Positions 4,604-14,768 of a stretch of DNA of 51,208 nt are shown here, in pieces. The first letter of the stretch is position 1, and every line of letters starts with the position of its first letter. The translations under genes were made by a program, and so were the position numbers. The notes under the pieces were generated by a model that did no database searches, was not told the DNA's origin, and worked only from the letters and a program-made list of their open reading frames with translations. This DNA comes from Gemmatimonadota bacterium (lineage in GTDB: Bacteria > JBHIER01 > G020348925), in contig CP070758.1 in NCBI GenBank assembly GCA_020348925.1, positions 1,550,109 to 1,601,316 on the forward strand, written 5' to 3'.

Positions 4604-5491
4604 ATGATACGAAGACATGTAACGCAAATATCGTTTGTCCTTTCCATTCTATTACATCTTCTCATACTTTTATTGTATACTCCCGTGAGCAGATTACGGT
4701 TTATTCCTTTGGAGGCTGAAAATCTGACGGAGGAACGTCAAGCTGATGAGAAACGAATCACTTTCGAGCTGGTTGAAACGCCGGAGGAATCCCGATCGGA
4801 AAAAGCGCCTGATCACGCTGATCTCATATCCGATAAAAATTCTATTGCCCGGGATCAGAATCAAAATGAGGACAGGCCGTCGGAAGACCCCTATTCGAAA
4901 GGTGATCTGGATGTGAAGGAGATTATCACGTCACAGCCGGAGACCCCTTCATCGTCCTCTCCCTCTTCGATCCCGGGTTCTGAAACCGAGGCGGCCCAAG
5001 CTGGGAAAAATGCAGGGAGCTCCCCCACCCCAACGGGACTTGGACAGAGCCCTCTCTCTATCAGACAGTTTCTGGCGCGGATCACACCATCGCAAAATAC
5101 GCAGCACAAGAATCAGTCGCCCGATCGACCCCTGTATGACCATGAGATATCTCAGGCTGAGGATTATGGAGGATTGACATTCAACACCTACAATTGGGAC
5201 TTCGCTCCTTATCTCATCGAAATGAAACGAAAGATAGAGAACAATATGTATCCGCCTCCGGCTTTTACGCGCTTCGGTTTCATTCAAGGTGAAACGCTGA
5301 TCCGCTTCAGAGTCATGCCGAGTGGAGAAGTCACGGATCTGGTTGTTTTAAATCATAATGGGCATGAATCCCTCAAAACAACCAGTCAACAGGCTATCTT
5401 ACTATCGTCAGCTTTCACCCCGCTGCCGAAGGACTTTCCTGAGGACTACTTAGAAGTGACGTGCTCTTTTAAATACGTCGTTCTGCGCTAA
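4604..5491 (+). CDS. tonB: TonB-family energy transducer
   Basis: A 295-aa protein with a short cytoplasmic N-terminus, one membrane helix (about residues 8-26, ISFVLSILLHLLILLLY) and a long Glu/Ser/Pro-rich periplasmic linker. The C-terminal TonB domain (about 205-295) includes YPPPAFTRFGFIQGETLIRF and ends SFKYVVLR. TonB spans the periplasm and passes proton-motive energy from ExbB/ExbD to outer-membrane receptors. ExbB and ExbD follow directly, which supports the call. The linker is acidic and serine-rich rather than the classic Pro-Lys/Pro-Glu repeat. Confidence 0.85.
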   Translation: MIRRHVTQISFVLSILLHLLILLLYTPVSRLRFIPLEAENLTEERQADEKRITFELVETPEESRSEKAPDHADLISDKNSIARDQNQNEDRPSEDPYSKGDLDVKEIITSQPETPSSSSPSSIPGSETEAAQAGKNAGSSPTPTGLGQSPLSIRQFLARITPSQNTQHKNQSPDRPLYDHEISQAEDYGGLTFNTYNWDFAPYLIEMKRKIENNMYPPPAFTRFGFIQGETLIRFRVMPSGEVTDLVVLNHNGHESLKTTSQQAILLSSAFTPLPKDFPEDYLEVTCSFKYVVLR

Positions 5492-7256: not shown

Positions 7257-7781
7257 TTAATCTTCGACAGCGACAGCATCCATACTTTTCCCCATCCGCA
7301 CCGCCGGTATCTCTCCATCAGGATATCTGCAAACACTCTCCTTCATCTTCGAATACCCTACCTTCTCCCAGAACCTCTGGTTGTATTTGGGTACGGCGGT
7401 ATCAAGAATCAGCCTCGAGATGTTCGGATAATGTCCTGCAACCCACTTCTCCACGTACCTTACCAATCCCGTTCCAATTCCACACTTGACAGAACCCAGT
7501 TTGACATAGAGAAAAAGGATCTCAGCCGTCGACTCACCCAGTAGTCTTAAAGTACAGAACGCAACCGGTTGGTCATCCACCACTGCAACAAAGGAATCCA
7601 TAGCTCCTATCATACGACCGAATTCAGCGGAATTGTAAGCTTTGGCGCCCAGCTCCACCGCATGCGGTGACAATTCCTGACGAAACATCCGCGTGAAAGC
7701 CTCGTAACGCATGGCGAAACAGGCTTGCGCATCACTGGATTCGAAGGGACGAAAAACGATTACTGGTTGACTGTCATCCAT
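7257..7781 (-). CDS. GNAT-family N-acetyltransferase
   Basis: A 174-aa protein with a GNAT fold. The N-terminus (VIVFRPFESSDAQACFAMRYEAF) follows the family pattern. The core shows VAFCTLRLLG (beta 4) and EILFLYVKLGSVKCGIGTGLVRYVE, where the usual acetyl-CoA loop (Q/RxxGxG/A) is read as KCGIGTG. RFWEKVGYSK matches the C-terminal helix-beta hallmark (Y...GF). The substrate is unknown. It is the first of a run of short minus-strand genes of mixed type. Confidence 0.8.
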   Translation of the reverse strand: MDDSQPVIVFRPFESSDAQACFAMRYEAFTRMFRQELSPHAVELGAKAYNSAEFGRMIGAMDSFVAVVDDQPVAFCTLRLLGESTAEILFLYVKLGSVKCGIGTGLVRYVEKWVAGHYPNISRLILDTAVPKYNQRFWEKVGYSKMKESVCRYPDGEIPAVRMGKSMDAVAVED

Positions 7782-7838
7782 AACTTGTATTCACCAAACC
7801 TTTTCTTTCTTGGAACAGGCGATTGTTTCGGATTTCTC

Positions 7839-8684
7839 TCACCTTGATTTCTTACCGATGGCAAGAAGATGGGAAGAGGCGCCAATGATGCTTGCATCCC
7901 CCTCAATCATTCGCATGAAATCCATCGCAGCACTCCAGGCACTTTCATCCTCTCTCAATGCATCTGTATTTTTTGTGAACCACAAGACCCCTTCCACGGC
8001 AAGCACTCGCACATCGAGAAATCCCGCTGATGCGATCTCATCGTTCAATTCGCTGGGATGTTGAAAATAGGCCTCGGTGAAATATTCAGGCTTCTCGGTC
8101 GGATTACGGTGACAGCTATCTCGCAAATCACCGGCGATGATATTTCGAAACGCAGGATCGTGTATATATCCACTGTACAATCCATCGATGAACGAAGCAA
8201 AACGGGAAATGGCAGCACATACTACAGCGCCTCCTGGACGAAGTACGCGAGAAGCCTCACCCAACACCCCCAGACGCTCGTTCTTTTCCTGGAGATGATA
8301 GAGTGGTCCCATGAGCAAAACGACGTCGGCGTTGTCCGTTTGAAACGGTAAATTGCTCCCATCACCGACACTCGCGCTCCACCATCGGTCTCCCGCGACC
8401 CGTTCCATCGCATCCCTTGCCTTCTCTACGTGATGGAGAACCAGATCTATGAGATGGACTTCATAGCCACGCTCCATGAGCCAACAGGCATAGGTGCCGG
8501 TCGCACCGCCCACATCAATGATCACTGCCGGTGGTTCTGGGAGATGTCTGTCCAGGATGTCGATGGTCCGCGTCCGCTCCAAGGACCCGATGTTCCGATC
8601 CAACCTGTCAGTTTCTGAAAATATTCTGGTGTAAAAGTCAATTATTCGTTGCGGAGCGTTCGTCACGTTCTTTTCCTTGCCCAT
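7839..8684 (-). CDS. Class I SAM-dependent methyltransferase
   Basis: A 281-aa protein with motif I DVGGATG (residues 57-63), an acidic end of beta 2 (VHLIDLV) and the later signatures DGSNLPFQTDNADVVLLMGPLYHL and ASRVLRPGGAVVCA. These fit the Methyltransf_11/25 group of Rossmann-fold methyltransferases. The acceptor cannot be predicted. There is a 57-bp gap to the next gene, on the same strand. Confidence 0.88.
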   Translation of the reverse strand: MGKEKNVTNAPQRIIDFYTRIFSETDRLDRNIGSLERTRTIDILDRHLPEPPAVIIDVGGATGTYACWLMERGYEVHLIDLVLHHVEKARDAMERVAGDRWWSASVGDGSNLPFQTDNADVVLLMGPLYHLQEKNERLGVLGEASRVLRPGGAVVCAAISRFASFIDGLYSGYIHDPAFRNIIAGDLRDSCHRNPTEKPEYFTEAYFQHPSELNDEIASAGFLDVRVLAVEGVLWFTKNTDALREDESAWSAAMDFMRMIEGDASIIGASSHLLAIGKKSR

Positions 8685-8741
8685 ATTATTCTTTTGAATG
8701 ATGTGATTGTCCCGCGCTACCCTTCGAGATGAAAGACGAAT

Positions 8742-9239
8742 TTATGTATCACGTCTTAATTTTTCCCCGGTACTGAGATAATGATTGATTGCCTCTTCCC
8801 AGTCCTCCAGATCACGGCAGAATATCATATCCAAATCTCTTTGATTCAAGAGATGCCCCGTGTCGGTCAATCCGGTATAGGTATACGTAATCTCCGCTCT
8901 TGTCCTCTGAGTATGGGTCTCTTCGCTGCATTGGATGGCTATCGTCCAAAGCCGCTCTGTTGTGAAAACCGTATACCCCATAAACGACTTCTTCGGTTCA
9001 TAGTTGGATACGATCCACGTATAGTTTGTTTCCCCATGGCCGTGATGCGTTTTTGTTGTGAAAACCATGTGTTCCTCAACGGCATTTGTTTCAGAATACA
9101 CGATCTCCGGGTTCCACCCATAAGCCCAGTTCATCTCTTTGATCGGACCAAACAATGGGAACACATTTTTCAGGGATCCATTCAATGTTATTGTTCTCGT
9201 TTTTGAAATACGTTTCGATGGAAACTTCGGCACTTTCAT
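8742..9239 (-). CDS. SRPBCC/START-like ligand-binding protein
   Basis: A 165-aa protein whose N-terminal part (SKTRTITLNGSLKNVFPLFGPIKEMNWAYGW, in pieces) follows the polyketide-cyclase/SRPBCC pattern: a beta strand, then a helix with PLFGP and W. The later strands include YTWIVSNYEP and AEITYTYTGLT. These proteins form a helix-grip cavity for hydrophobic ligands. An AAGGAGGAGA site lies directly before the ATG. No partner gene points to a ligand. Confidence 0.6.
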   Translation of the reverse strand: MKVPKFPSKRISKTRTITLNGSLKNVFPLFGPIKEMNWAYGWNPEIVYSETNAVEEHMVFTTKTHHGHGETNYTWIVSNYEPKKSFMGYTVFTTERLWTIAIQCSEETHTQRTRAEITYTYTGLTDTGHLLNQRDLDMIFCRDLEDWEEAINHYLSTGEKLRRDT

Positions 9240-9321
9240 CTTCTCCTCCTTGAGCAGTCTTCAAAAGAGAATGATCTTCGCTCCCAATTACAATCCTGTT
9301 CCCAACAGGAATAGCTCGACA

Positions 9322-9684
9322 CTAAAAAGAAAAACTGACCACCTCTCCGGTTGCCGTGAAGAACCGGCTCGTAAAGTCCACGGCGGCCCGCTCATCAAAT
9401 CCTTTGCATGTGTACAGCACAATTGAGAAAAACGCCTCCCCGGTCCAGACATACGCGGAAATGCCCGAATCGACGAGCGGAACGAAGGCGTCGAACCCGG
9501 CATTCTCCCCCCTGCCCATCCCTGATACTGGAGAGTAAATTACCGGTTCCCCATAGGTGTTTAAATCGAGATGCTTCGCGACTCCACGAAGATAATGCTC
9601 AATGACCTCTTTCGTCATTTCGATCGAGTAGAATCCCTCGATCAGAAGTCGCTGCCTGAAAATGTTGGGGGCAATATTTTTCAT
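9322..9684 (-). CDS. S-adenosylmethionine decarboxylase (SpeD)-like protein
   Basis: A 120-aa protein; the ATG at 9684 is preferred over 9741 because GGAGAG lies just upstream. It has the length and pattern of bacterial class 1b AdoMetDC: RQRLLIEGFY matches the RHLVAEFY start, and DSGISAYVW is followed by YTCKGFD. Counting from the cleavage/pyruvoyl Ser (Ser73 here), the catalytic Cys falls exactly +20 (Cys93), as in the known enzymes (Ser63/Cys83). The processing His at +5 is replaced by Tyr78, and the ESH motif reads DSG. No spermidine synthase is nearby, so it may be a diverged homologue with another substrate or no self-processing. Confidence 0.6.
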   Translation of the reverse strand: MKNIAPNIFRQRLLIEGFYSIEMTKEVIEHYLRGVAKHLDLNTYGEPVIYSPVSGMGRGENAGFDAFVPLVDSGISAYVWTGEAFFSIVLYTCKGFDERAAVDFTSRFFTATGEVVSFSF

Positions 9685-14129: not shown

Positions 14130-14768
14130 TTACGACTGTAAAGAGTAATCGAAATAACAGGAATCATCCCCTCTCATCAAGCACGTGTTCCGAGTTAAGA
14201 CTATCTTTGGATTGAAGGTTCTGGCCACAGTGTAGTCCGCATGACATATGGCTGAATACCCAATGTCCGCCGCCTCAGCCTCTCGAAATGTCTTCGCCAC
14301 AAGGCACTCCGTCATTGCAACGATCCCCGAAGCACCTGCTTTTTGAACGATTTCGATTGTCATGGCGCTGCTCCAGAATTGGCTCTTCGTCATGGGTATC
14401 CAAAAATGAGTGATAAGCGCATCGACATCTCTGTTTTGAACATCCTGGAACTGCGATCGAACACTGTCAGAGTATATTTTTGACCCAACCTCCCTCAGCA
14501 TTTCAAGGAACCGATCTTTTCCAATCTCCCCCTCCAATCCTTTCATATACCGTATATACCAACTTTTAAAGGCAAAGTTGAAGACCCGTTCGTACGACAT
14601 ACCCGAATCCTTTTGAAACTTGTGCTCCTCCTCTGGTTTTGAATCTTGATGAAAGAGAGTTTCAGCGACCGCTCCTTTGCAGCCCGCATACAATAGTGGA
14701 AGAGCCGACACTGATTTGAAAAGAAAATTTCTTCGAGTGTGACGATACGATGTTTCCCCTGTTCTCAT
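14130..14768 (-). CDS. TAT-type lipoprotein with ATC-hydrolase-like domain
   Basis: A 212-aa protein. The N-terminus has a twin-arginine motif (TRRNFLFKS) followed by a hydrophobic stretch and a lipobox (LLYAGC), so it is probably exported folded and lipidated. The C-terminal part, with ICHADYTVARTFNPKIVLTR and MRGDDSCYFDY, fits the L-2-amino-thiazoline-4-carboxylate hydrolase family (PF14196), whose members mostly have unknown roles. The Cys and Asp residues near the end are the family-type conserved positions. There is no pathway context. Confidence 0.65.
   Translation of the reverse strand: MRTGETSYRHTRRNFLFKSVSALPLLYAGCKGAVAETLFHQDSKPEEEHKFQKDSGMSYERVFNFAFKSWYIRYMKGLEGEIGKDRFLEMLREVGSKIYSDSVRSQFQDVQNRDVDALITHFWIPMTKSQFWSSAMTIEIVQKAGASGIVAMTECLVAKTFREAEAADIGYSAICHADYTVARTFNPKIVLTRNTCLMRGDDSCYFDYSLQS

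Follow-up and report, generated by a model that had tools for sequence, protein, structure and literature searches.

One gene in the window (the whole stretch of 51,208 nucleotides analysed here) encodes a small protein with the predicted fold of SpeD, the AdoMet decarboxylase, in which both partners of the processing pair appear to have been exchanged: Tyr stands at the place of the processing His, and Asp stands at the place of a Ser eight residues before the Ser from which the pyruvoyl group would form. We favor, by a modest measure, the view that this protein is a self-processing, pyruvoyl-dependent amino-acid decarboxylase that keeps the SpeD fold, has a rearranged processing site, and probably acts on a substrate other than AdoMet; self-cleavage and decarboxylation would be its two reactions.

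The open reading frame at 9322-9684 on the minus strand translates to 120 residues followed by a TAG stop, with the sequence GGAGAG three bases upstream of its ATG. Pfam model PF02675 (AdoMet_dc) matches residues 25-113 with E=3.6e-5 and 24.5 bits, half a bit short of the curated gathering cut-off of 25 bits. Close relatives fall on either side of that line (L018 at 32.4 and L026 at 34.2 bits above it, L011 at 24.4 below), and the NCBIfam SpeD equivalog model gives the window protein 14 bits against a cut-off of 75.65. The gene is the only PF02675 match in the host genome, a single contig of 5.04 Mb whose assembly is 96.3% complete. An AlphaFold2 model of the protein (pLDDT 91.2) has as its best structural neighbors the Thermotoga maritima SpeD structures 1vr7, 1tmi and 1tlu (Z 14.3-14.4 over 104-105 residues, rmsd 1.9-2.1); for 1vr7 the alignment covers 105 residues at Z 14.4 and rmsd 2.1, which places the model within the SpeD fold. 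Foldseek likewise returns T. maritima and A. aeolicus SpeD as the closest structures (E 1e-6 to 4e-6; Z 13.4-14.4). A sequence search of solved structures with query A1 gave no match at E 1. The gene and the residues discussed below are as follows, with fractions counted over 40 non-identical intact members of the family, the window's own included, which come from cyanobacteria, proteobacteria and DPANN archaea.

9322..9684, minus strand: SpeD-like protein of the Tyr class, 120 residues (translation, Pfam, AlphaFold2 model, structure alignment)
9649..9657, minus strand: Arg10-Gln11-Arg12 (RQR), N-terminal mark of the Tyr class; Arg10 and Arg12 each 39/40
9637..9639, minus strand: Glu16, conserved in the Tyr class, 39/40
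9490..9492, minus strand: Asp65, at the place of Ser55 (human Ser229), probably facing Tyr78 across the hairpin; 39/40
9463..9471, minus strand: Asp72-Ser73-Gly74, DSG in place of ESH, Asp72 at the place of Glu62; Asp72 39/40, Ser73 and Gly74 40/40
9466..9468, minus strand: Ser73, predicted pyruvoyl-forming serine (T. maritima Ser63) by structural register; 40/40
9451..9453, minus strand: Tyr78, at the place of the processing His68; 39/40
9406..9408, minus strand: Cys93, at the place of Cys83; 40/40

The structure alignment ends with residue 120 paired to residue 110 of T. maritima SpeD, an offset of 10, which sets Ser73 on Ser63, Tyr78 on His68, Cys93 on Cys83 and Asp65 on Ser55. The preliminary description, made from the sequence alone, had noted Ser73 and Cys93 (+20) in their usual spacing, Tyr78 at +5 and DSG for ESH, and both the translation and this register bear it out: from the Ser63/His68/Cys83 triad of bona fide AdoMetDC the Ser and Cys are kept, and His68 has become Tyr78. 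Its reading of the protein as a diverged SpeD homolog with the processing His replaced is also supported. Another His in the same pocket would have undone that reading; we looked for one, and no substitute His is conserved among the 40 members, the commonest His column being residue 38 (12/40). Left out of the set were L066 (truncated), L029 and L099 (broken), whose fragment carries Tyr at the place of Cys93. L029:6001-6324, a woesearchaeotal member, has an in-frame stop (TGA) at residue 17.

Columns occupied identically in 40/40 members are S73, G74, C93, W80, N61, G63, A66, F67, P69, L70 and F85, and those at 39/40 are D65, D72, Y78, R10, R12, E16 and K94. The exception at both 65 and 72 is L032, with Glu at each, so that Asp or Glu precedes the Ser in all 40 members, a position held by Thr in SpeDC-type rows. 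The exception at Tyr78 is the archaeal L095, with Gly at +5, Tyr at +3 and Asp kept at -8. The RQR-type N-terminus also occurs in phage and archaeal rows of the Tyr class and in no His+5 row of the alignment table, and Glu16 is invariant too in A3 (10 rows) and A4 (23 rows). In the secondary structure of the AlphaFold2 model, strands 63-70 and 73-80 form a hairpin, and their register suggests that residues 65 and 78 lie opposite each other across it.

A table of 126 rows, the SpeD homologs gathered in this analysis, suggests that positions -8 and +5 changed together. Every row with His at +5 has Ser or Thr at -8 (39/39). Among the 84 rows with Tyr at +5, 47 carry an acid at -8 but no His at +3, 36 carry His at +3 but no such acid, none has both, and one, the phage row L222, has neither. 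Neither His nor Tyr occupies +5 in L066 (broken), L095 and L074. This last (G288:C3, minus strand) is a 240-residue, two-domain SpeD-like fusion from the sample of the Nostoc phylum, whose second half carries RQR and TSG.

A tree was built without the trait columns, after 8 long or partial rows had been dropped and L004 had been given its fuller sequence. In it a branch with support 91/97, not starred, separates the Tyr rows, 50 with L095 included, from 29 others; an earlier tree had put L004, then a partial, long-branched His row, on the Tyr side, and had starred the window branch (99/86, 41 rows). The Tyr rows thus stand apart from canonical AdoMetDC, with which clustering would have spoken against the preliminary description. 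Within the Tyr class the difference between acid and His+3 is one change on the tree (support 97/80), and many independent base swaps are rejected. Because there is a single switch, the complementarity seen in 83 of 84 rows reflects one event in evolution and cannot be tested statistically as if it were many. The split of 47, 36, 0 and 1 reads as if one proton acceptor had been retained in the pocket.

Pyruvoyl formation from an internal serine in AdoMetDC has been explained by a Ser/His pair. As reported in PMC3975893, human AdoMetDC requires Ser229 for activation, and its H243A variant stalls at an ester intermediate, for which a structure was obtained; in T. maritima, where Ser55 is the counterpart of human Ser229, S55A still activates, and Glu62 can serve as the base toward Ser63. 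In the window protein, Asp72 would correspondingly help Ser73 attack its own preceding carbonyl, and the chain would pass through an ester. Asp65, paired with Tyr78 and replacing Ser55/His68, would then take the alpha-proton of Ser73; most naturally, removal of this proton would fall to Asp65, hydrogen-bonded to Tyr78. The ester would split, turning residue 73 into a pyruvoyl group with which the substrate's amino group would form a Schiff base, CO2 would leave, and Cys93, which we take to be the acid of the decarboxylation step, would give a proton back. The coupled change of Ser to Asp at -8 fits a site that still works in altered form better than one that has been inactivated. Points against this explanation are the loss of any conserved His, set beside the stall of human H243A (PMC3975893), the single switch on the tree that reduces the 83-of-84 pattern to one event, and the two rows, phage L222 and archaeal L095, that break the pattern of acid or His+3.

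The preliminary description had left two outcomes, a changed reaction or no cleavage. The first is supported indirectly; the second appears less likely, because no intact copy lacks Ser73 or Cys93 and Ser has become Asp at -8 in step with the Tyr. The second would make the protein a pseudoenzyme of the SpeD fold that does not cleave and serves to bind a ligand or a partner, in the manner of the trypanosomatid prozyme or the AdoMetDC-like protein of Leishmania. Human AdoMetDC depends on its His for the second step (PMC3975893), and here that His is absent with no substitute His; the Leishmania protein is reported to lack autocatalytic cleavage (PMC3686867). Against this, the same invariant Ser73 and Cys93 and the altered -8 site would have to be explained, and a protein of the prozyme or Leishmania type would be expected to have an active SpeD partner, whereas the host (G000) has a single PF02675 match and no second that could serve. 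We regard a pseudoenzyme as unlikely.

The family is sparse and scattered. A scan of a genome collection in which the host phylum is represented by one genome found 19 relatives with 56-69% identity, in cyanobacteria, proteobacterial and alphaproteobacterial metagenome-assembled genomes (MAGs), Woesearchaeota, Micrarchaeota, and one record labeled Gracilibacteria; family genes occur also on plasmids of Nostoc, Acaryochloris and Halioglobus. A megablast search of L065 against plasmids gave no match. In three genome samples, strong profile matches (E 5.5e-35 or better) number 4 of 386 for the Nostoc phylum (one a fragment), 6 of 385 for an alphaproteobacterial class and 14 of 327 for a Woesearchaeota phylum (plus one broken copy), frequencies that are not unbiased, the centre genomes having been picked for carrying the gene. 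Weaker matches in these three samples are mostly other SpeD types. Of 11 pairs compared, 8 have a finite dS, with dN/dS of 0.05-0.34 (dS above 1 in four of the 8), and in the other 3 synonymous sites are saturated. The gene is under purifying selection, and the Tyr pattern is neither chance nor a sequencing slip, because it is kept across 40 intact members. Annotation of these genes varies: the Nostoc member is called 'hypothetical protein', and the Acaryochloris member S-adenosylmethionine decarboxylase, probably wrongly. The record labeled Candidatus Gracilibacteria (L014, a 6.0-Mb genome) has neighbors in common with cyanobacterial L013 and is probably a mislabeled cyanobacterial MAG; a second copy is present there as an N-terminal fragment (4841-4921).

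Gene neighborhoods give no indication of the substrate. Whether neighbors recur with homologs had been raised in the preliminary description; neither clustering of open reading frames nor a list of 34 same-strand genes within 120 bp (L019, L025 and L027 left out) revealed a partner across the family, although small groups of close relatives share some neighbors. Inspection by eye, with profile scans of only a few, suggests that most of the 34 are unrelated housekeeping genes. Four members (window 7257, L031, L127, L130) have a GNAT acetyltransferase gene nearby, but GNATs were discounted as partners, being too common. In the window itself, a minus-strand run at 7257-9684 comprises the SpeD-like gene, an SRPBCC-like gene (weak, E=0.022), a methyltransferase and a GNAT, separated by 82, 57 and 57 bp and possibly forming one transcript; the run was not seen again around other members. 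Elsewhere in the window, 14130-14768 (minus strand) encodes a protein with an ATC_hydrolase (PF14196) domain.

AdoMet is disfavored as the substrate, as judged from residues and gene content, because position 81 is never Pro, position 82 is Glu in only 1/40, and no stand-alone SpeE was found in the host genome. Position 81 follows H-x-W in SpeD, and the Pro said to mark AdoMetDC is taken here as the P of H-x-W-P; it is absent from all 40 members. Position 82 aligns with what we take to be the ribose-binding Glu of SpeD. The earlier remark that no SpeE homolog lies nearby is correct: PF01564 exceeds its cut-off in three long reading frames of the host genome, all outside the window. Two of the three were scanned; they score 105.2 and 86.2 against the speE equivalog cut-off of 249.55, and both exceed that of the NCBIfam model 'fused MFS/spermidine synthase'. 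The host may therefore have an aminopropyltransferase partner, a point against the favored explanation. Across 38 host genomes, PF01564 exceeds its cut-off in 20, PF02784 in 29 and PF00491 in 27; in the window's host no protein matches PF02784 at 1e-10.

The host already encodes a pyruvoyl arginine decarboxylase route from arginine to putrescine. At about 3.71 Mb of its contig C1, genes for PvlArgDC, a deoxyhypusine-synthase-family protein and agmatinase stand in a row (L147:4971-7553), and a second agmatinase-type gene occurs in the same genome. Because these genes are present, a further arginine decarboxylase is not needed, and the window protein was rejected as the host's only one. Two other genomes hold comparable arrangements: in G952 a PvlArgDC-like gene, below the NCBIfam cut-offs, lies beside agmatinase, and in G906 a His-type SpeD homolog does so.

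This bears on the proposal that the protein is a diverged pyruvoyl arginine or ornithine decarboxylase, similar to SpeDA or SpeDC, that tops up polyamines. SpeD-derived enzymes of this kind are described as common, spread by transfer and present in DPANN archaea (PMC10407285), and genes of the arginase/agmatinase family occur in 27 of the 38 host genomes. The window's host, however, already has PvlArgDC and agmatinase, and in G960 a PLP decarboxylase-family gene adjoins deoxyhypusine synthase. For three alphaproteobacterial arginase-family proteins that were scanned, arginase gave the highest score, though short of its cut-off; the single neighbor scanned is an ornithine aminotransferase. Published SpeDA and SpeDC are said to keep the His (PMC10407285), the assayed pelagiphage arginine decarboxylase has it, and no speB or speY was recognized among the 34 close same-strand neighbors. 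We think this proposal improbable. Still more doubtful is the idea that processing halts at the ester or ends by simple hydrolysis, giving an N-terminal Ser without a pyruvoyl group and a different, perhaps hydrolytic, activity: human AdoMetDC without His243 does give an ester intermediate (PMC3975893), but Cys93 would then be invariant in 40/40 members for no clear reason.

The other branch of the Tyr class includes phage proteins. A profile of its rows recovered 31 loci in viral contigs (L196-L226), nearly all with His at +3. One of these proteins, searched against phage records, gave no match at 1e-3; a model of a phage Tyr-class protein (pLDDT 96.8) is SpeD-like with Z 13.0. For the window branch itself there was no match in phage records and no confirmed match in viral contigs; a phage origin was rejected, all 31 viral matches falling in the other branch. 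With SpeDC-type queries, one found no match in phage records at 1e-3, a second matched only Sinorhizobium phages, and a DNA search gave only short matches, E about 6, among the matches listed. In L081, read directly from the sequence, a SpeDC-type domain is followed in the same frame by a spermidine-synthase-like domain.

A saccharopine-dehydrogenase-family gene lies downstream in 12 of the 31 viral loci, several at a gap of a few bases, and an aldehyde dehydrogenase upstream in 9, counts that rest on identification of each family from one example and include some loci too short to tell. Two of the former searched against solved structures had PH1688 (3abi) as best relative, and the Pyrococcus horikoshii structure 3ABI is called L-lysine-6-dehydrogenase in PMC10413350. 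These neighbors hint that the phage branch, and it alone, is tied to lysine chemistry. No saccharopine-dehydrogenase-family gene was found near the window family or the other loci, and a search of 98.6% of contig C1 from G960 gave none either (best E 0.009). A pyruvoyl carboxyspermidine decarboxylase was considered and is unsupported, given the likeness to PH1688, the absence of the HEE triad of carboxyspermidine dehydrogenase in all 11 examined, a count that omits L214 as a near copy of L213, and the lack of such a dehydrogenase gene at those other loci.

As a tentative and broader proposal, to which we give somewhat less than even credence, the Tyr class (mostly RxR...E ... SG...Y ... Y[TS]C) may be an undescribed lineage of pyruvoyl enzymes in bacteria, archaea and phages. 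Its members would form the cofactor without a His at +5, the window branch using an Asp or Glu at -8 with Tyr+5 and the other branch a His at +3, and would decarboxylate substrates outside AdoMet, arginine and ornithine. For phage members the substrate might be lysine or an amino acid derived from it, because of the lysine-6-dehydrogenase-like and aldehyde dehydrogenase genes beside part of the loci. A scattered, conserved family with both members of the processing pair exchanged serves as nature's own test of which groups are essential. Should its proteins mature, one fold would hold a second solution; should they not, this strongly conserved family with the SpeD fold would serve some different purpose.

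In the open-access literature consulted, no account was found of a SpeD class in which Tyr replaces His68. The closest characterized protein is the class 1b SpeD of T. maritima (TM0655; 1tlu, 1tmi, 1vr7), with which the window protein shares its predicted fold over nearly its full length and, in register, the Ser, the preceding acid and the Cys at +20; Trp at +7 is shared with several SpeD rows. It differs in having Tyr78 for His68, Asp65 for Ser55 and DSG for ESH, in lacking the Pro after H-x-W, in its RQR N-terminus, and in a host genome where no stand-alone SpeE was found. SpeDA and SpeDC are likewise small SpeD relatives of sporadic distribution, present in DPANN archaea, and both they and the window family have phage relatives (PMC10407285, PMC9992855). 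Conservation of Ser, His and Cys is expected across SpeD, SpeDA and SpeDC according to PMC10407285, and the arginine decarboxylase assayed from pelagiphage HTVC201P (P0003) has, by reading, His at +5 and Thr at -8, whereas the window family lacks the His. SpeDC is marked by four diagnostic residues (Gln, Thr, Phe and Tyr), and SpeDC-type rows have Thr before the Ser where the window family has Asp or Glu. No speB, speY or speE was recognized close to members of the window family. Also close are the His+3 cousins of phages and Woesearchaeota (L003, L100-L104, L140-L141 and most of L196-L225), which share the RQR or RKR N-terminus, Ser-Gly, Tyr+5 and the Cys, but which carry His at +3 and no acid at -8 and, in 12 of the 31 viral loci, the dehydrogenase neighbor described above.
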